DNA of 50,240 bases from Methylobacter sp. (GTDB lineage: Bacteria > Pseudomonadota > Gammaproteobacteria > Methylococcales > Methylomonadaceae), in NCBI RefSeq assembly GCF_030680395.1, contig NZ_JAUXVR010000043.1:1-50240 (forward strand). Direction: 5' to 3'. The notes beneath the pieces are model-generated. The model searched no databases. It was not told the origin of the DNA and saw only the letters and a program-made list of their open reading frames with translations. This document shows positions 1,705 through 48,326 of this stretch, one piece after another. Each line of letters starts with the position of its first letter. The stretch's first letter is position 1. The position numbers and the translations under genes are program-made.

Positions 1705-1826
1705 GGTGTTTACCTTATATTTATCATCTGACCGGCCTTTTGTGATTGTAAATCAACACGTCACGTTTTCAAATTTTAACGCTTCTTTTTGATCTACGTA
1801 AATTCTGCTGCAAGTACAGAAATACA

Positions 1827-1890
1827 GGAGGTAGAGCACCAACAGTAGGCACTTTGGGCGGCGCTGGAGCAGTTGCCGAGAACAATACAT
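1827..1890. repeat. Degenerate copy of a dispersed hairpin-type repeat
   Basis: This stretch between the response regulator and the PilZ gene shares exact blocks with other places in the window. GGAGGTAGAGCA (1827-1838) recurs inside acnB at 32145-32156. GGAGCAGTTGCCGA (1866-1879) recurs in acnB at 32188-32201. ACCAACAGTAGGC (1838-1850) recurs at 30735-30747 beside icd. The surrounding gap (1705-1940) holds no gene that I can support. Confidence 0.6.
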
Positions 1891-6977: not shown

Positions 6978-7622
6978 TTACTTAGCCAAATCGGACTTAA
7001 TAGTGTCATGCAAAAGTGTCAACAAACTTAAACTCGTCGCGTCAGCCACCGGCTTTTGTTCTTTGTCCATGATAATAACATCGGTTTGCTGGTCGTTTTC
7101 TACCAATTTAAGAACGTACTCTTGTTCAGTGATTTCAAATCCTGTGAATAAAAAAACGACCTCATCCCAAATAGACCCGTCTTCCACTTCCTTTTTGTTC
7201 GGGTCATATTGAACATGAAACAGCCCTTCTTCCTGATTGCGATTAGTCACTTCAATAGACTTTCTGCTTAATGCTTTACCCACCATACGCCATGCTATTG
7301 TTGAGGGCGCACCGATACGTAATCGCTTTGTTCCCTGATCAGCATCAACCAAATCAACCTGAATTAATTTCCGGTCTACAGTCGGAACTGGTTCGGTTGA
7401 CGGGACAGTGGTGGCAACATCAGCTGCTTCAGCGGCCTGAGCGGCGGCGGGAGCGTTTGCGATTGAACCGCCTGCAAGATCAGGCGGTATGGTCAGCGGT
7501 GGGATTTCAGTCGTAAACTGATAATCTTTTTCTTTATCCGGGAATAAATTCTTTATGGTGCTGCAGGCCGATACATTGACCAATGCAGCAACGATAATGA
7601 ACGACCTGATTTTAGTTTTCAT
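6978..7622 (-). CDS. bamC: Outer-membrane assembly lipoprotein BamC (short form)
   Basis: A 214-aa lipoprotein with a signal peptide and lipobox ending at Cys20 (VNVSAC). The early region [21 protein letters not shown] matches the proline-rich N-terminal lasso with which BamC contacts BamD. One helix-grip domain follows ([33 protein letters not shown] ... WDEVVFLF). E. coli BamC is ~344 aa with two such domains, so this version appears to keep only the first. It overlaps dapA by 4 bp (ATGA), the classic dapA-bamC arrangement, so the two are translationally coupled. It acts at the inner face of the outer membrane in the BAM complex. Confidence 0.88.
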
Positions 7623-8551
7623 GACGCGTTCGACTGCATGGACGCAGAAGGTAGCGCAACGCAGGGGTCGTTGCCGGAAATAACTTCGGCCTGCCGCATT
7701 GCGTCACGAACCGCATCAAAGCAATCTTCCGTTAACCAGGTTAAAGGTAAACGTATGCCCTTACCCATCAAACCCATTTCAGCAACCGCCCATTTGACCG
7801 GGATCGGGTTAGACTGAATAAACAGGTTTTTGTGTAACGCGGCCAGTTTTTTGTCGATGGCTAAAGAGGTTTCTTCATCGCCCGCAATCGCCAGCATAAT
7901 CATTTCATGTACCAGTTTTGGCGCGACATTACCGGTTACAGTAATGCTGCCGTTGCCACCCAGCAGGCAAAACTCGCGACTGGTCGCATCGTCGCCGGTA
8001 TAGATTGCAAAATCATCACCGGCCAAATTACGAATTGTTTTAACTCTGGACAGGTCACCGGTCGCCTCTTTAACGCCGACGATGTTCTTGATATGAGACA
8101 GGCGGCCAACGGTTTCGGGCAGCATGTCGCAAGCGGTGCGTCCGGGTACGTTGTATAAAATCTGGGGAATATCGACGGCTTCGCTAATAGCCTTGTAATG
8201 CAGGTATAAGCCTTCCTGAGTAGGCTTATTGTAATAAGGGGTCACGATCAGACAGGCATCGGCGCCGGCTTCTTTGGCCAAGCGGGTCAGGGTAATCGCT
8301 TCGGTAGTCGAGTTTGCGCCGGTTCCGGCAATCACCGGAATTCTGCCCCCGACATACTCGACAATAGACTTGATAACGTCGCAATGCTCATGCTCATCCA
8401 GCGTCGCCGACTCGCCTGTAGTACCGACGGCAACAAGGGCATCCGTCCCTTCTGCTATGTGAAATTCCACTAACCTTTTTAAGCTCTCCTTATCCACCGC
8501 ACCGCGTTCATCCATCGGTGTTATTAAAGCTACGATACTACCTTGAATCAT
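7619..8551 (-). CDS. dapA: 4-hydroxy-tetrahydrodipicolinate synthase
   Basis: A 310-aa TIM-barrel lyase (family usual ~292 aa; this one has ~15 extra C-terminal residues). It condenses pyruvate with aspartate semialdehyde at the entry to lysine and diaminopimelate synthesis. Visible are the substrate loop [10 protein letters not shown], the triad tyrosine in [27 protein letters not shown] and the Schiff-base lysine in GVKEATGD. It starts at an ATG after a short AT-rich leader (8552-8803, no other gene seen there) and runs into bamC with a 4-bp overlap. Confidence 0.97.
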
Positions 8552-19477: not shown

Positions 19478-19640
19478 ATTAACGCCATGGATGGCGTTAA
19501 TACAAAATCTGCATGAGCAGATATTTGCTCGCATTCACCACATCCATGTGGATTTATGTAGTAAGGACCGTGAGTAGCGGAAGCTTCCCCACGTCCCTGT
19601 GGGTTATGCAGAAGGTATGACCCCAAAGGGTGGGAAGGTA
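19478..19640. other. Array of short hairpins between tadD and flp (candidate structured RNA/CsrA-type sites)
   Basis: Several short palindromes follow one another: AACGCCATGGATGGCGTT (core 19481-19498), ATCTGCATGAGCAGAT (19507-19522), on the minus strand CCACATGGATGTGG (19538-19551) and CCCACAGGGACGTGGG (19588-19603), and CCCCAAAGGG (~19622). The two minus-strand hairpins carry ACATGGATGT and ACAGGGACGT, which fit the CsrA/RsmA high-affinity pattern ACANGGANGU in a hairpin loop. The array lies after the tadD stop and before the duplicated region leading to flp. The rest of 19323-19705 shows no gene. Confidence 0.5.
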
Positions 19641-19705
19641 GAATCGCGTCTGGAACAGCTATCGAGAGCTCGTAGATTGAAAATCAGAAAAATAATTTAT
19701 CTGAC

Positions 19706-25129: not shown

Positions 25130-25245
25130 CAGTTGCGGATGATTGAACGGATGCCGCATGACTGTATGAAGCCGTTGCCGGCAACTGTAGGGATTCAAGA
25201 GCTAGAGCAATGCAGGGAGCAATTGCCAAGGAACGAGAGCTTTGA
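25130..25245. repeat. Hairpin repeat in the tadA/deaD intergenic region
   Basis: GCAATGCAGGGAGCAATTGC (25207-25226) folds into a GCAAT/ATTGC hairpin with AGGGA at the loop. It matches the acnB insert unit GCAATGCATGGAGCAATTGC except for one base. Neighbouring pieces (CGGATGATTGAACGGATG, GCCGTTGCCGGCAACTG) are also GGA-rich or palindromic. The rest of the 24654-25363 gap is AT-rich (about 24880-25020) and holds no supported gene. Confidence 0.6.
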
Positions 25246-25363: not shown

Positions 25364-27154
25364 ATGTCCAATGATGTTTCTACATTACCCTCTTTCCGTG
25401 ATTTAGCTCTGATTGAACCGGTGCTAAGAGCGCTGAATGATGTCGGTTATGAAACACCCTCACCCATACAAGCACAAACCATCCCGCTCCTACTGAAAGG
25501 CAAAGACGTTCTGGGGCAAGCACAAACAGGAACCGGCAAAACCGCCGCTTTCGCATTACCCATTTTGTCGCGTATCGACCTCAAACAAAAAGACCCGCAA
25601 GTTCTGGTTCTGGCGCCAACTCGCGAACTGGCCATTCAGGTGGCAGAAGCGTTTCAACGTTATGCCGCGCACTTAAAAGGTTTCCACGTTCTGCCTATCT
25701 ACGGCGGACAAGACTACACTACCCAGTTACGCCAGCTAAAACGCGGCGCTCATGTGGTTGTCGGCACACCGGGCCGGGTTATGGATCACATGCGTAAAGG
25801 CACTCTAAACCTGAAAGGACTGGGCTTTTTGGTTCTTGATGAAGCCGACGAAATGCTGCGCATGGGCTTTATTGATGACGTGGAATGGATTCTGGATCAA
25901 ATTCCTGAACAAAGACAAATAGCCTTATTTTCCGCGACCATGCCTTCGGTTATCCGCAAAATCGCTCAGCAATATCTTAATGAGCCTGAACACATCACCA
26001 TCAAAGTAACTACCGCATCCGCTGAAAATATACGCCAACGCTATTGGCTGGTCAGCGGCGTACATAAACTGGACGCGCTAACCCGTATTCTGGAAGCGGA
26101 GACGTTTGACGGCATGATTATCTTTGTCAGAACTAAAACCGCAACAGTTGAGCTGGCAGAAAAACTGGAAGCGCGCGGTTATTCCGCCGCCGCTATTAAC
26201 GGCGACATGTCTCAAGCGTTACGCGAGCGCTCCATTAATAACCTGAAAAACGGCAAACTGGATATTTTGATTGCGACTGACGTTGCTGCACGCGGACTGG
26301 ATGTAGACCGTATCACCCACGTGGTTAACTACGACATTCCTTACGATACCGAATCTTATGTTCACCGTATCGGCAGAACCGGCCGCGCAGGACGTACTGG
26401 CGATGCCATTTTGTTTATTGCTCCCAGAGAAAGAAATCTGTTGGCTAATATTGAAAAAGCGACCAAGCAAAAAGTTGAAGAAATGGGCTTGCCTTCAACC
26501 GAGGTCATTAACAATAAACGTATCGCACGCTTTAAACAGAATATTACCGACACTTTGGCCGCAGAGGAACTGAGCTTTTTCAGCCAACTGATAGAACAAT
26601 ACCAACAAGAGCACAATGTAACTGCATTGGAAATAGCCTCCGCACTGGCAAAACTGGTTCAGGGCGAAACGCCGTTGTTACTGCAAAATCTGCCTAAAAG
26701 ATCTAAAGATAGCCGCGACGACAGACCATCCAGGGATGATAGATCGGCAAAACCCGACAGACCGCAAAAAGACCGCAAGCCAAAACGTGCTTTCGGCGGC
26801 GGAGCGGATGTTGAAATGGAAACGTACCGGATTGAAGTCGGCCATAACCACGGCGTAAAACCCGGCAACATCGTTGGCGCCATAGCCAATGAAACCGGCA
26901 TTGACGGCGACCATATCGCCCGCATCAGAATCCAGGACGACTACAGCACTGTTGAATTACCGGCAGGCATACCGAAAGAATTGTTTGAGGAATTGAAAAA
27001 AGTCAGGGTAGCCGGCCAGCAACTTAACATATCCAAAATGGATGAAAATGCTAAAAAAGCGGCGAAAGACGACGATAGCACTAAAAAAGTGGATAAAAGC
27101 AAAAAAAGAGTAGGTTCGCCATCCAGACGGGCAAAGCCAAAAGCGGCTGAATAA
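25364..27154 (+). CDS. deaD: DEAD-box RNA helicase, CsdA/DeaD type
   Basis: A 596-aa helicase. In order: Q motif (YETPSPIQAQTIP), Walker A AQTGTGKTAAF, motif Ia PTRELAIQV, TPGRVMDH, DEAD box VLDEADEMLRMGF, motif III SATMPS, and the second RecA lobe with IIFVRTKTATVELAEKL, ATDVAARGLDV, YDTESYVHRIGRTGRAGRTG. After a basic linker (SKDSRDDRPSRDDRSAKPDRPQKDRKPKR) comes a DbpA/CsdA-type RNA-binding domain (METYRIEVGHNHGVKPGNIVGAIANETGIDGDHIARIRIQDDYSTVELP) and a Lys-rich tail. This layout matches DeaD/CsdA, which helps ribosome biogenesis and mRNA decay in the cold. It starts after AGGT, ~6 bp before the ATG. Confidence 0.96.
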   Translation: MSNDVSTLPSFRDLALIEPVLRALNDVGYETPSPIQAQTIPLLLKGKDVLGQAQTGTGKTAAFALPILSRIDLKQKDPQVLVLAPTRELAIQVAEAFQRYAAHLKGFHVLPIYGGQDYTTQLRQLKRGAHVVVGTPGRVMDHMRKGTLNLKGLGFLVLDEADEMLRMGFIDDVEWILDQIPEQRQIALFSATMPSVIRKIAQQYLNEPEHITIKVTTASAENIRQRYWLVSGVHKLDALTRILEAETFDGMIIFVRTKTATVELAEKLEARGYSAAAINGDMSQALRERSINNLKNGKLDILIATDVAARGLDVDRITHVVNYDIPYDTESYVHRIGRTGRAGRTGDAILFIAPRERNLLANIEKATKQKVEEMGLPSTEVINNKRIARFKQNITDTLAAEELSFFSQLIEQYQQEHNVTALEIASALAKLVQGETPLLLQNLPKRSKDSRDDRPSRDDRSAKPDRPQKDRKPKRAFGGGADVEMETYRIEVGHNHGVKPGNIVGAIANETGIDGDHIARIRIQDDYSTVELPAGIPKELFEELKKVRVAGQQLNISKMDENAKKAAKDDDSTKKVDKSKKRVGSPSRRAKPKAAE

Positions 27155-31983: not shown

Positions 31984-34647
31984 ATGCTAGAACAATACCG
32001 TATACATGCAGCAGAACGTGCCGCCGAAGGCATCGTCCCTAAGCCGCTTGATGCCGAACAGGTCGCCGCTTTGGTTGAGCTGATTAAACAACCGCCCGCA
32101 GGTGACGACTGCATGGATGCAGGAGGTACGACTCCACGGATGGAGGAGGTAGAGCAATGCATGGAGCAATTGCCGAGAGCAACGCATGGAGCAGTTGCCG
32201 AACAAGAATTCATACTCGATCTGTTTGCTAACCGTATTCCCGCCGGTGTTGACGAAGCGGCTTATGTCAAAGCAGGATTCCTGGCGGCCATCGCAAAGGG
32301 CGAGGACAGCTCGCCGATTCTGGATGCTGCACGCGCTACCGAATTACTGGGCACTATGCTGGGCGGTTATAACATTGCGCCGTTAATCGAGTTGCTGGAT
32401 AACGAAGCATTGGCTCCGATTGCCGCCAAAGCGCTTTCCCATACTTTGCTGATATTCGATGCTTTCCACGATGTGCAGGAGAAAGCCGATGCAGGCAACC
32501 CATTCGCCAAACAGGTGCTTAATTCCTGGGCGGAAGCGGAATGGTATACCAGCAAGCCCAAAATGCCTGAAAAACTCACGGTTACCGTATTTAAGGTAAC
32601 CGGCGAAACCAATACCGACGATTTGTCACCGGCACCCGATGCCTGGTCGAGGCCGGATATTCCGTTACACGCCAAGGCTATGCTGAAAATACCGCGTGAA
32701 GGCATTACCAACGCCGAACAACAAATTGCCGAACTCAAGCAAAAAGGTTTTCCGGTCGCTTATGTAGGCGATGTAGTCGGCACAGGGTCTTCGCGCAAAT
32801 CGGCGACCAATTCGGTATTATGGTTCATGGGCAATGATATTCCGTACATTCCCAACAAGCGCGAAGGCGGCGTTTGCATCGGCAGTAAAATCGCGCCGAT
32901 ATTCTTTAACACGATGGAAGATTCAGGCGCCCTACCCTTTGAATGCGATGTGACCCAAATGGCGATGGGAGATGTAATCGACATTTATCCGTATGCAGGC
33001 GAGGTTAAGCGTCACGACAACGGCGAACTGATCTGCAAATTCGAACTGAAAACCGAGGTAATTCTGGACGAAGTGCGCGCCGGCGGCCGTATTCCGTTAA
33101 TTATCGGCAGGGGGTTGACTGACCGTGCTCGTAAGGCACTGGGACTTTCGGCATCCACGGTTTTTTGCCGTCCGGTTAATGCCAAAGACAGCGGCAAGGG
33201 CTTTACGCTGGCGCAAAAAATGGTCGGTCAGGCCTGTGGCGTTGCGGGTGTTCGTCCCAATACTTATTGCGAACCGCACATGACTACCGTGGGTTCTCAA
33301 GACACTACCGGTCCTATGACTCGCGACGAATTGAAAGACTTGGCTTGCCTGGGTTTTTCAGCCGATCTGGTGTTGCAATCGTTCTGCCATACCGCCGCGT
33401 ATCCGAAGCCGATTGACGTCACCATGCAGCATACGCTACCGGATTTTATTATGAATCGCGGCGGCGTATCGCTCCGTCCCGGCGACGGCATTATCCATTC
33501 CTGGTTAAACCGGATGTTATTGCCGGATACGGTCGGCACCGGCGGCGACTCGCATACCCGCTTCCCTATCGGTATTTCATTTCCCGCCGGTTCAGGATTA
33601 GTTGCGTTTGCCGCCGCAACCGGCGTGATGCCGCTGGATATGCCGGAATCGGTTTTGGTCCGGTTTAAAGGCGAGATGCAGCCCGGTATTACCTTACGCG
33701 ATCTGGTCAATGCGATTCCTTATGTAGCGATACAGCGCGGTTTGCTGACTGTTGAAAAACAGGGCAAGAAGAATGTATTCTCAGGCCGCATTCTGGAAAT
33801 CGAAGGCTTACCGGATTTAAAAGTCGAACAGGCTTTTGAATTGTCTGATGCATCCGCTGAACGTTCTGCCGGTGGCTGCACGGTGCGCTTGAATGAAGCG
33901 CCGATTCGCGAGTATTTGAATTCAAACATCACCCTGCTGCAATGGATGATTGCCGAAGGTTACGGCGATGTGCGCACCATAGAGCGTCGCATCAAGAGCA
34001 TGGAAGAATGGCTGGCTAATCCGGTATTGCTTACACCTGACGCCGATGCGGAATACTTTGAAATCATCGAAATCGATATGAGTGAAATCAAGGAACCGTT
34101 ATTAGCCTGCCCCAACGATCCTGATGATGTGAAAACCTTGTCCGCTGTGGCTGGAACTAAAATCGACGAAGTGTTTTTGGGTTCCTGCATGACCAATATC
34201 GGCCACTTCCGCGCCGCCGGAAAATTGCTGGAAAAACAACAAGGCGAATTGCCGACCCGTTTGTGGGTTGCCCCGCCCACCAAAATGGATCAAACCCAAT
34301 TAACCGAGGAAGGGTATTACAGCACCTTCGGCAAAGCCGGAGCGCGCACTGAAATGCCGGGCTGTTCATTATGCATGGGTAATCAGGCGCGGGTGGCTGA
34401 AAACGCTACCGTAGTTTCCACCTCGACGCGCAACTTCCCCAATCGTTTGGGCAATGGCGCAAATGTGTATCTGTCATCGGCCGAACTGGCGGCTGTGTGT
34501 TCGATTATGGGCAAGATTCCGAGTTTTGACGAATACATGCATTATGCGAATCAGATTAATGAAACAACCGAAGACACCTATCGTTATTTGAACTTTGATC
34601 AGATGGATAGTTATCGGCAAAAGACTGGTGAAGTCTTACAAAGTTAA
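31984..34647 (+). CDS. acnB: Aconitate hydratase B with an in-frame repeat insertion
   Basis: An 887-aa bifunctional aconitase/2-methylisocitrate dehydratase; E. coli AcnB is 865 aa. The N-terminal HEAT-like domain begins [40 protein letters not shown] and resumes [33 protein letters not shown]. The residues between (about 41-74) have no counterpart in normal AcnB and are encoded by a hairpin repeat. The swivel domain ([19 protein letters not shown]) and catalytic domain ([53 protein letters not shown]) keep the [4Fe-4S] cysteines. It acts in the TCA cycle with the two IDHs upstream. AGGA lies before the ATG. Confidence 0.96.
32104..32205 (+). repeat. Array of four GGA-loop hairpins inserted in frame in acnB
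   Basis: Four hairpins in ~90 bp: CTGCATGGATGCAG (32109-32122), CTCCACGGATGGAG (32132-32145), GCAATGCATGGAGCAATTGC (32154-32173) and GCAACGCATGGAGCAGTTGC (32179-32198). All present A(T/C)GGA at the loop on the sense strand. The block encodes ~34 residues absent from other AcnB proteins, keeps the reading frame and has no stop codon. Related pieces occur at 1827-1879 and 25207-25226. Confidence 0.8.
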
Positions 34648-46454: not shown

Positions 46455-46494
46455 GTCGAGTCACCCAAGGGAACTTCCCCCTCAGGTGCTCACG

Positions 46495-46528
46495 GAACCG
46501 TACGTGAACCTCTCGATTCATACGGCTC
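46495..46528 (-). ncRNA. Group II intron domain V
   Basis: The 34-nt hairpin begins GAGCCGTATGAATCGAGAGG and closes with CACGTACGGTTC, the AGC/CGU-type catalytic helix. It lies 3 bp after the maturase stop and 40 nt before the 3' splice site. Confidence 0.92.
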
Positions 46529-46531
46529 TTC

Positions 46532-47833
46532 CTATCCAGTCAATTTCATACCATAAAACAATCGCCAATGTGCAAACAAATCAGGTTGACTCCGGGCTAT
46601 GCCCAGCAACCAATTCTCTGCACGCTGTCGGTGTCCACGAAAGTGTTTAAACTTCCGCGCTGCCCACAAAACAAGTTTCCGATTTAAATGTCGCCAAACC
46701 GGATTTAATGCCGACCGATAGAACACCCCGTAATACGCTATCCAACCGCGTATCACAGCATTAAACATCCTTGCCAGATCGTGCAGGCTCTTATCGCTTT
46801 TCTTCTGGAGCGCCCATCCTCGAATTTCCTGACGTATCGCTTTGGCTGCTTTATTACTGATAGCCGGAACAAAGCCGGTGAACAAGCCACCTTCTTTGCT
46901 TTTCGCTCCACGAGGCCTGAATGTGAACCCTAGAAAATCAAACGAAACGTCCGGGTAATCCTCTTTGCACCGATAGTTTTTACAGTAAACCACACGGGTT
47001 TTCAGAGGATGCAGTTCAAGTCCACAGACTGCAAACCGCTCCTGCAACACTTGTTTTAGCCTTTCCGCCTGTTCTCTACTCCGACAATGTATAACGCCAT
47101 CATCGGCATAGCGCTCAAATGGAAATTCGGGGCAGTGCCTCTGCATCCACATATCAAATGCGTAGTGCAGAAACAAATTAGCCAGCAAGGGGCTGGCAAC
47201 TCCACCTTGCGGGGTTCCCCGATCTCTCGGCTGCAGTGTCCCATCCGCCATCTGCACGGGTGTTTTCAGCCAACGCTCAATGTACAGCAGCACCCATTTT
47301 TCCTGGGTATGCTTGCGTACCGCGCGCATTAACAGATCATGGTCGATATTATCAAAATAACCCTTAATATCGAACTCTAGCACCCAATTGTATGTCCAAC
47401 AGCGTTTCCGCGTCATAGACAACGCCTGATGCGCTGATCTTCCGGGCCGGTATCCATAGGAATCAGGATGGAAGTGCTTCTCCAATTTCGGCTCCAGTAC
47501 CTGCTTGACCACCGTTTGGGCGATTCGATCCGTCACCGTTGGAATACCCAAAGGACGGGTTCCTCCATTGGCTTTGGGGATTTCGACGCGCTTGACCGGT
47601 GGCGGCTGATAGCTTCCTGATGCCATCCGATTCCATAGCTTGTAGAGATTATTACCAAGATCCTGGTCAAACTTTCCCAGTGTCTGTGCATCAACCCCCG
47701 CTCCGCCCCGGTTGGCTTTTACTCGTTTGTAAGCTTCCCACACCTGATGTTTGGTAATAGGAAACGATTTTGCCGGGTTCAATAGAATCCTCCTGTTGCC
47801 AGTTGTTTTATCGTTCCAAGCCAGATAGGGCAA
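46532..47833 (-). CDS. ltrA: Group II intron reverse transcriptase/maturase
   Basis: About 433 aa starting at TTG 47833 (AAGGGG is close upstream; the exact start is uncertain). RT motifs: PKANGGTRPLGIPTVTDRIAQTVV (RT1-2), YGYRPGRSAHQAL, FDIKGYFDNIDHDLL (RT3), GTPQGGVASPLLANLFLHYAFD (RT4), FERYADDGVIHCRS (catalytic YADD, RT5), KTRVVYC, FDFLGFTFRPR (RT7). The maturase X/thumb domain follows (RMFNAVIRGWIAYYGVFYRSAL). No HNH endonuclease domain is seen at the C-terminus. It supports splicing and retrohoming of its host intron. Confidence 0.94.
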   Translation of the reverse strand: MPYLAWNDKTTGNRRILLNPAKSFPITKHQVWEAYKRVKANRGGAGVDAQTLGKFDQDLGNNLYKLWNRMASGSYQPPPVKRVEIPKANGGTRPLGIPTVTDRIAQTVVKQVLEPKLEKHFHPDSYGYRPGRSAHQALSMTRKRCWTYNWVLEFDIKGYFDNIDHDLLMRAVRKHTQEKWVLLYIERWLKTPVQMADGTLQPRDRGTPQGGVASPLLANLFLHYAFDMWMQRHCPEFPFERYADDGVIHCRSREQAERLKQVLQERFAVCGLELHPLKTRVVYCKNYRCKEDYPDVSFDFLGFTFRPRGAKSKEGGLFTGFVPAISNKAAKAIRQEIRGWALQKKSDKSLHDLARMFNAVIRGWIAYYGVFYRSALNPVWRHLNRKLVLWAARKFKHFRGHRQRAENWLLGIARSQPDLFAHWRLFYGMKLTG

Positions 47834-48326
47834 CCCCTTCGCTCCAGCACCATTACAGTCCCTTCGACACTACTACGGGTTGCTCCGTCCCTGTACTCCG
47901 CATCGGTACTCTCACACTTAGGATACTCCCCCTTGTGTTTCTCCCTTAACATCGGAGTGACGGTTCCCACGTTCTACACAAGAGCCCGGATCGCACTCTC
48001 GCCACCTCCATGCCGGATGCCGACCGGGCCGTCAACAGTCACCTCCCGGACTTATCCTGCGGTAACGAAACCTCCGCAGTTTTGACATCATCTCCACGTT
48101 TCGACACGTCATCAGTGGTTCACTTGCGTTCGACTTTACGACCCATACCTGACCAAATCGAGTTTGGCCTTTTCCTATCTCGCTCACCACAACGCCTCTT
48201 AAACGTCGCAGCAGTAGGTGGTTTGAAGCCTCCGCCTGTACGGCGACTCCGAGGGACCCACCCTCATCTCTTGTGCAGCATAGCTGCACGGAGGAGTTTC
48301 ACCCCCTGTGCGCCTTCGTGGCACAC

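Follow-up and report, generated by a model that had tools for sequence, protein, structure and literature searches.

Protein-coding REPs and Rickettsia palindromic elements (RPEs) inside genes have been published (PMC3733652), as have the MITEs QMITE1 and QMITE2 that lie in frame in Coxiella genes (PMC5896051); each paper named in this section is represented by part of its text. GTAG REPs are small, dispersed stem-loops that carry GTAG at the base of the hairpin and have alternative paired residues in the stem, lying mostly between genes and sometimes in frame in genes, including those for a Rep/UvrD-type helicase and for tRNA synthetases (PMC3733652). RPEs, as described there and in general background, place palindromic DNA in frame in many unrelated proteins, and the two Coxiella MITEs are non-autonomous, add in-frame residues to proteins and are described with direct repeats that reflect target duplication and with inverted repeats at their ends (PMC5896051). 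The biochemistry of TnpA_REP, with its CT cleavage ends, is treated in PMC8266576, and CsrB/RsmZ-type RNAs and CsrA sites carry a repeated ANGGAN loop on a short stem (PMC7652899). The palindromic insert that we describe here shares traits with all of these systems.

The window, which is the whole 50,240-nt stretch of DNA that we analyzed, contains an acnB gene whose coding sequence is extended by a nested pair of palindromic units (Table 1). The repeat starts about 120 nt into the coding region, between PPAG and EFILDLF, and the inner unit is placed exactly at GGTA/GAGC of the outer one (here and below, the slash marks the point of insertion). A preliminary description of the window had counted about 34 extra codons at this place; extra residues are present there, but relative to related genes acnB is longer by 96 nt (32 codons), with 34 residues replacing two (e.g. 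EE). The four hairpins that it had noted were recovered when the insert was folded alone, with the loops ATGGA, ACGGA, ATGGA, and ATGGA. The folding energy of the insert alone was not exceptional (z −1.6; 13/200 shuffles equally low), and with a few flanking bases the minimum free energy fold adds long-range pairs (z −2.66; 4/200 shuffles equally low); the case against chance is recurrence and covariation, and folding energy is not counted in it. We consider it very probable that what acnB has gained is a mobile palindromic element, non-autonomous and about 48 nt long, which works in the manner of REPs and RPEs.

Table 1. The acnB insert and further copies of the palindromic unit in the window.
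Feature	Position	Strand	Support
acnB (aconitase B, 887 aa), host of the insert	31984..34647	+	ORF; Pfam Aconitase_B_N, Aconitase_2_N, Aconitase; E. coli AcnB 1l5j
Insert of 96 nt, made of two palindromic 48-nt units nested one inside the other	32106..32201	+	
First part of the outer unit, with hairpin B (loop ATGGAT, 32113-32118) and the linker to GGTA	32106..32128	+	
Inner unit, with hairpin B (loop ACGGAT, 32136-32141) followed by hairpin A (loop ATGGA, 32161-32165)	32129..32176	+	model match, 76.6 bits
Remainder of the outer unit, with hairpin A (loop ATGGA, 32186-32190) and the end CCGA	32177..32201	+	
Another copy, antisense in the last codons of ORF 7619-8551 (minus)	7631..7677	+	58.5 bits
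Another copy, intergenic, 135 nt before ORF 25364-27154 (plus)	25182..25229	+	52.3 bits
Diverged copy, intergenic	19618..19665	+	24.4 bits
Weak, interrupted copy, intergenic	1822..1879	+	nhmmer E 7e-4

Across 30 aligned units the layout is CGA, a stem (positions 4-7/14-17) with its loop (8-13), a linker (18-25), a second stem with a bulge (26-32/38-45) around a loop (33-37), and the end CGA (CCGA). Hairpin B has a 4-bp stem and the loop ANGGAN; hairpin A has 7 bp plus a bulge and the loop ANGGA or AGGA. Both loops keep A, G, G, and A, and any of the four bases can occupy the second position, which hairpin A often lacks (giving a 47-nt form). The loop of hairpin B reads ANGGA in 61/62 matches from elsewhere, 73/88 from the source genome and 35/35 from the congener G019. 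The linker contains GTAG, directly before hairpin A and within the 48 nt, invariant in 46 near-consensus units and present in 57 of the 62 matches from other taxa. The ends of the unit are not inverted repeats, five of the six consensus frames are free of stops, and subfamilies with other A hairpins exist. The structure is supported by covariation: 98.5% of 330 cells pair as against 92.4% in shuffles, and two-sided changes occur in 5 of 11 pairs (25 cells), values that were each reached by 0/500 shuffles. Structures slid along the aligned units gave at most 60% pairing, and further pair types were unexceptional (76/500 shuffles).

The unit is highly repeated. BLAST found 43 matches in the source genome, the best other copy at 95% over 97 nt, and the covariance model R1 (E up to 0.01) returned at least 117 matches there and at least 149 in G019, counts that are lower bounds from the best-scoring 150 candidates and miss weak copies. 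The genome-wide search thus bore out the suspicion of a dispersed repeat, and related fragments, which the preliminary description had placed elsewhere in the window, are present at four positions (Table 1). Tandem and nested arrays occur as well. At several loci (L117, L118, L119, L170, L171, and L079) composites of about 150 nt occur in which a larger relative has a reversed unit within its hairpin B loop, and these composites are 96% alike between two species; other copies (L049, L055, L057, L059, L060, and others) are nested in other palindromic repeats (e.g. GGGTTACG...CGTAACCC).

We then compared the start of acnB between relatives. The preliminary description had reasoned that an old protein feature would be carried by all close relatives; the search took in 22 genomes of the genus, and acnB could be read in 19 (G009, G013, and G014 had no usable acnB match), of which 17 lack the insert and two, G022 and G001, have a shorter related insert. 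Outside the genus the short form of acnB was found in 8 of 10 loci, the other two being missed by the recognition pattern. In a tree built on the 1700 nt downstream of the insert, whose backbone is weak, the insert-bearing source genome (G000) pairs with the empty G021 (support 0.997), G001 with the empty G006 (0.996), and G022 groups with the empty G020 and G005 (1.000). G022 and G001, in which the related insert occupies the identical acnB codon, are therefore sisters neither of the source genome nor of each other. Because insert carriers pair with empty relatives, the history of the site may be one of repeated insertion, regional recombination, or loss of the insert, and letters common to the remnants in G022 and G001 favour a link between those two.

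Gain of the unit was also seen in other genes. We compared nine of them, picked together with acnB for their clear in-frame copies and so not a random sample; gene names other than acnB and pglX, and the label IS3-like used below, were read from protein letters. The site was empty in 9/9 relatives for rep, in 5/5 for pip (among them G008, whose row lists stops), and in 2/2 for cobJK. For leuS it was empty in seven of eight relatives and filled in one; a leuS counted as empty, that of G001 (L334), has a different 51-nt insert close to the unit site. A 3-hydroxyacyl-CoA-dehydrogenase-like gene was empty in five of six relatives, the sixth giving no clear state, and among eight relatives of a methyltransferase-like gene four were empty, one had the same unit, two had larger inserts and one a partial copy. 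For a sensor kinase one relative was filled and one empty, with GAGCA/GGAGC as the empty site. For hypF one relative was empty and one congener had a single unit, where the source genome carries an enlarged insert with additional sequence in this linker, which fits growth by nesting. The site in the ninth gene (L129) was unalignable in five relatives. Filled sites were longer than empty ones by 48 nt or by more than a single unit, and at the pairs compared no target duplication of variable sequence was visible; some sites may have a short target duplication identical to the unit end (GCCGA or CGA). At the DNA level, an in-frame palindromic repeat is therefore present in unrelated proteins and missing from their orthologs in acnB, rep, pip, cobJK, leuS, and others. 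Together with the dispersed copies and the 17 congeners without the acnB insert, these pairs uphold the earlier proposal that a mobile or spreading repeat entered acnB in frame.

The insertions favour a particular target. Among single copies with intact ends and a length of 46-49 nt, counted once per distinct flank pair, 39/60 have A before and G after the unit, against a frequency of 0.049 for the AG step, and the same A/G flanks were found in 35/47 matches, tandem copies among them, from viral contigs and other taxa. The site GGTA/GAGC within the unit is itself an A/G site, and the right end, CCGA/G, resembles the target. Palindromes in the flanks (stem score at least 8 in 4/60, with 0.4 expected) are suggestive only. 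The A/G preference and the insertion without visible duplication point to a mobilizing enzyme. The whole unit inserts mostly between A and G and also sits inside itself at such a site, as in acnB. It would move as folded single-stranded DNA; from the A/G target, the self-nesting at GGTA/GAGC and the target-like right end we infer that a putative enzyme acting in trans cuts after A at both ends and joins them into A/G. Such cutting and joining would be like the single-strand transposition of the IS200/IS605 kind.

The unit could instead be a classical GTAG REP mobilized by a host RAYT (TnpA_REP) transposase, which we think possible but unlikely. The position of GTAG before hairpin A and its invariance, the bulge and short tail of hairpin A, and the frequency of Y1 genes in the genus all fit such an origin. 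However, 127 Y1 places were listed across 24 genomes, and the 38 of them examined with 1.5-kb flanks yielded one marginal match to the unit (17 bits, E 0.017), and a short-motif search for units near Y1 transposases found no linkage. The filled and empty pairs and the flanks moreover put the ends of the unit at A/C and A/G, not at the CT described for TnpA_REP in the part of PMC8266576 cited above, and GTAG is internal to the unit. The unit also differs from GTAG REPs in its two unlike hairpins held in a fixed 48-nt frame, in its self-nesting, and in its ANGGA loops, since the loops described in the cited part of PMC3733652 are mostly of 2-3 nt; the comparison covers the description of the 24 published GTAG REP families in the text, and the unit may belong to one of them. 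From RPEs, known by description, the unit appears to differ in sequence and ends, and it has a broad range in Pseudomonadota, and neither the direct repeats nor the terminal inverted repeats described for the Coxiella MITEs were seen in it.

The loops raise a different explanation, which we hold to be improbable, namely that the unit is a mobile CsrA/RsmA binding module in which two ANGGA hairpins about 25 nt apart suit a CsrA dimer, and which, as it spreads, would bring acnB and other mRNAs under CsrA control or titrate CsrA. The constant A, G, G, and A with a free second position fit ANGGA(N), and a hexaloop ANGGAN carried by a short stem corresponds to the CsrA/RsmE site, as far as the cited part of PMC7652899 goes. 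csrA is present once in the genome, a UACARGGAUGU-like stretch occurs in 6/62 matches elsewhere, and in 43 diverged copies GGA outlasts the linker (231/258 vs 280/344, p = 0.006). Both loops are kept more often in sense than in antisense copies (49/57 vs 21/37, p = 0.003), but in an analysis that leaves out L173 and L189 (further copies of one insertion sequence) and units outside 44-50 nt, this difference weakens to 46/55 vs 23/37 (p = 0.03), and to p = 0.08 when copies are stratified by age. Loop retention differs inside genes (sense 25/30 vs antisense 3/10, p = 0.003) and not between them (21/25 vs 20/27, p = 0.5). Stem, linker and ends, which CsrA alone would not need, are conserved across families like the loops, and the acnB copy lies far from the start codon.

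The distribution over strands bears on the same question, since a role in RNA would lead one to expect an excess of sense copies. With genes called by our own script in the fetched stretches, uncurated, the 115 elements of the source genome comprise 75 intergenic copies, 33 in genes (21 sense, 12 antisense) and seven partial ones, and the 48 of G019 comprise 35 intergenic, 12 in genes (nine sense, three antisense) and one partial. The 110 intergenic elements are balanced, 36 being in sense to both neighbours and 36 against both, with 21 flanked by convergent and 12 by divergent genes and five unassigned. Deep in genes (n = 22) 16 copies are sense and six antisense (p = 0.05 against one half; p = 0.003 against a ratio of 2:3, the expectation when only consensus frames without stops survive). 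This excess may reflect tolerated peptides and coding constraint, or selection at the RNA level; tolerance could account for it because the forward frames give polar, acidic peptides. The likeness of the loops to CsrA/RsmA sites, pointed out in the preliminary description, therefore holds, whereas its further suggestion of control over acnB is compatible with the data but has the strand balance of the intergenic copies against it, so that CsrA control of acnB mRNA is a minor candidate reading, possible but not likely. We likewise give little credence to a phylum-wide mobile element that would hand twin putative CsrA hairpins to mRNAs or form a dispersed sponge, with CsrA binding having also fixed the ANGGA loops. 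Compared with CsrB/RsmZ-type RNAs, the unit occurs as dispersed copies on both strands, and at the Rfam gathering threshold the window contains no such RNA, the only hits being parts of a group II intron. These lie at 46455-48265 on the minus strand, with domain V at 46455-46530, D1D4-2 at 48147-48265 and ORFs in between.

It is very unlikely that the unit is itself immobile and carried as a passenger by insertion sequences, recombination and local duplication. An IS3-like insertion sequence in G019 (L173, L181, L189, and L190) does carry a 47-nt copy inside its first ORF, with three near-identical and two related copies of this insertion sequence present, which gives the unit one way to spread as a passenger, and the tandem and nested arrays fit this reading; most copies, however, stand alone between unrelated flanks, and the empty sites indicate gain of the unit alone. 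An old AcnB protein feature that resembles repeats by chance is almost certainly wrong, since the same DNA occurs at more than 100 further places, on both strands and in several frames, and is absent from 17/19 congeners, even though two congeners carry a shorter, related insert at this codon. The dispersed copies already refute it, and chance resemblance was rejected too.

A mobile element of the proposed kind could become part of proteins. Its 48-nt length keeps the frame and five of six frames are stop-free, so that housekeeping proteins can tolerate copies in their loops, which, at the DNA level, turn into coding sequence. All 20 intact units deep in genes are 48 nt long, as compared with 17/52 intergenic units divisible by three, a contrast to which we give no weight because the ORF caller can place a unit inside a gene only where the frame continues. 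In acnB the frame is kept, and the earlier placement of the insert in a loop of the N-terminal domain agrees with the alignment of relatives, with the interruption of the alignment to E. coli AcnB (1l5j) at the insert, and with an AlphaFold model in which residues 41-69, between helices 24-35 and 69-83, have pLDDT below 50. That model is middling (mean pLDDT 67; 226/887 residues below 50; 32 sequences). Most likely, the insert encodes a tolerated disordered loop with no new function.

The range of the unit is wide. By BLAST it is present in 22/22 sampled congeners and in one of two other genera of the family, and weakly in 3/16 genomes of other families. Among evenly drawn gammaproteobacterial genomes, the source genome included, 51/274 match (E up to 1e-6), spanning 42/222 genera and 36 family labels (counted from the listed rows), and several of these units score level with the best of the source genome. 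Across Pseudomonadota 20/249 genomes match, eight of the same class (source genome included) and 12 of other classes, the latter from two families. Carriers also include five Pseudoalteromonas plasmid records and six IMG/VR contigs; INPHARED phage records gave no match. In BREX pglX, copies were found on one Moellerella and one Salmonella plasmid and in 2/5426 E. coli genomes, with BLAST covering 69% of the query in these plasmid and E. coli matches. The pglX of E. coli ZF34 (L392:3001-3048) and of the Moellerella plasmid (L393:3001-3048) contains a diverged unit in frame: the CDS is annotated at full length, the covariance match (47 bits) extends over all 48 nt with hairpin A diverged, and the unit is read through as 17 residues with no stop.

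Coding palindromes are thus known in kind. The 48-nt unit family was not found in print: in a search that covered the running text of part of the journals, no paper contained the six 16-letter pieces of the unit and none was found by topic. A near-identical palindrome under 36 family labels of the sampled Gammaproteobacteria, which reaches more than 100 copies in single genomes and has repeatedly entered housekeeping proteins in frame, offers a natural experiment on proteins that gain segments, and gene annotation and structure prediction encounter such inserts as unexplained loops. At L390:780-880 in another gammaproteobacterial family, the unit lies in the D-loop of an apparent tRNA 5′ fragment (GTTGGTTA/GAGC). 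ARAGORN calls only a neighbouring tRNA-Met at this locus, and the linker of the unit, GGTAGAGC, is similar to a tRNA D-arm.
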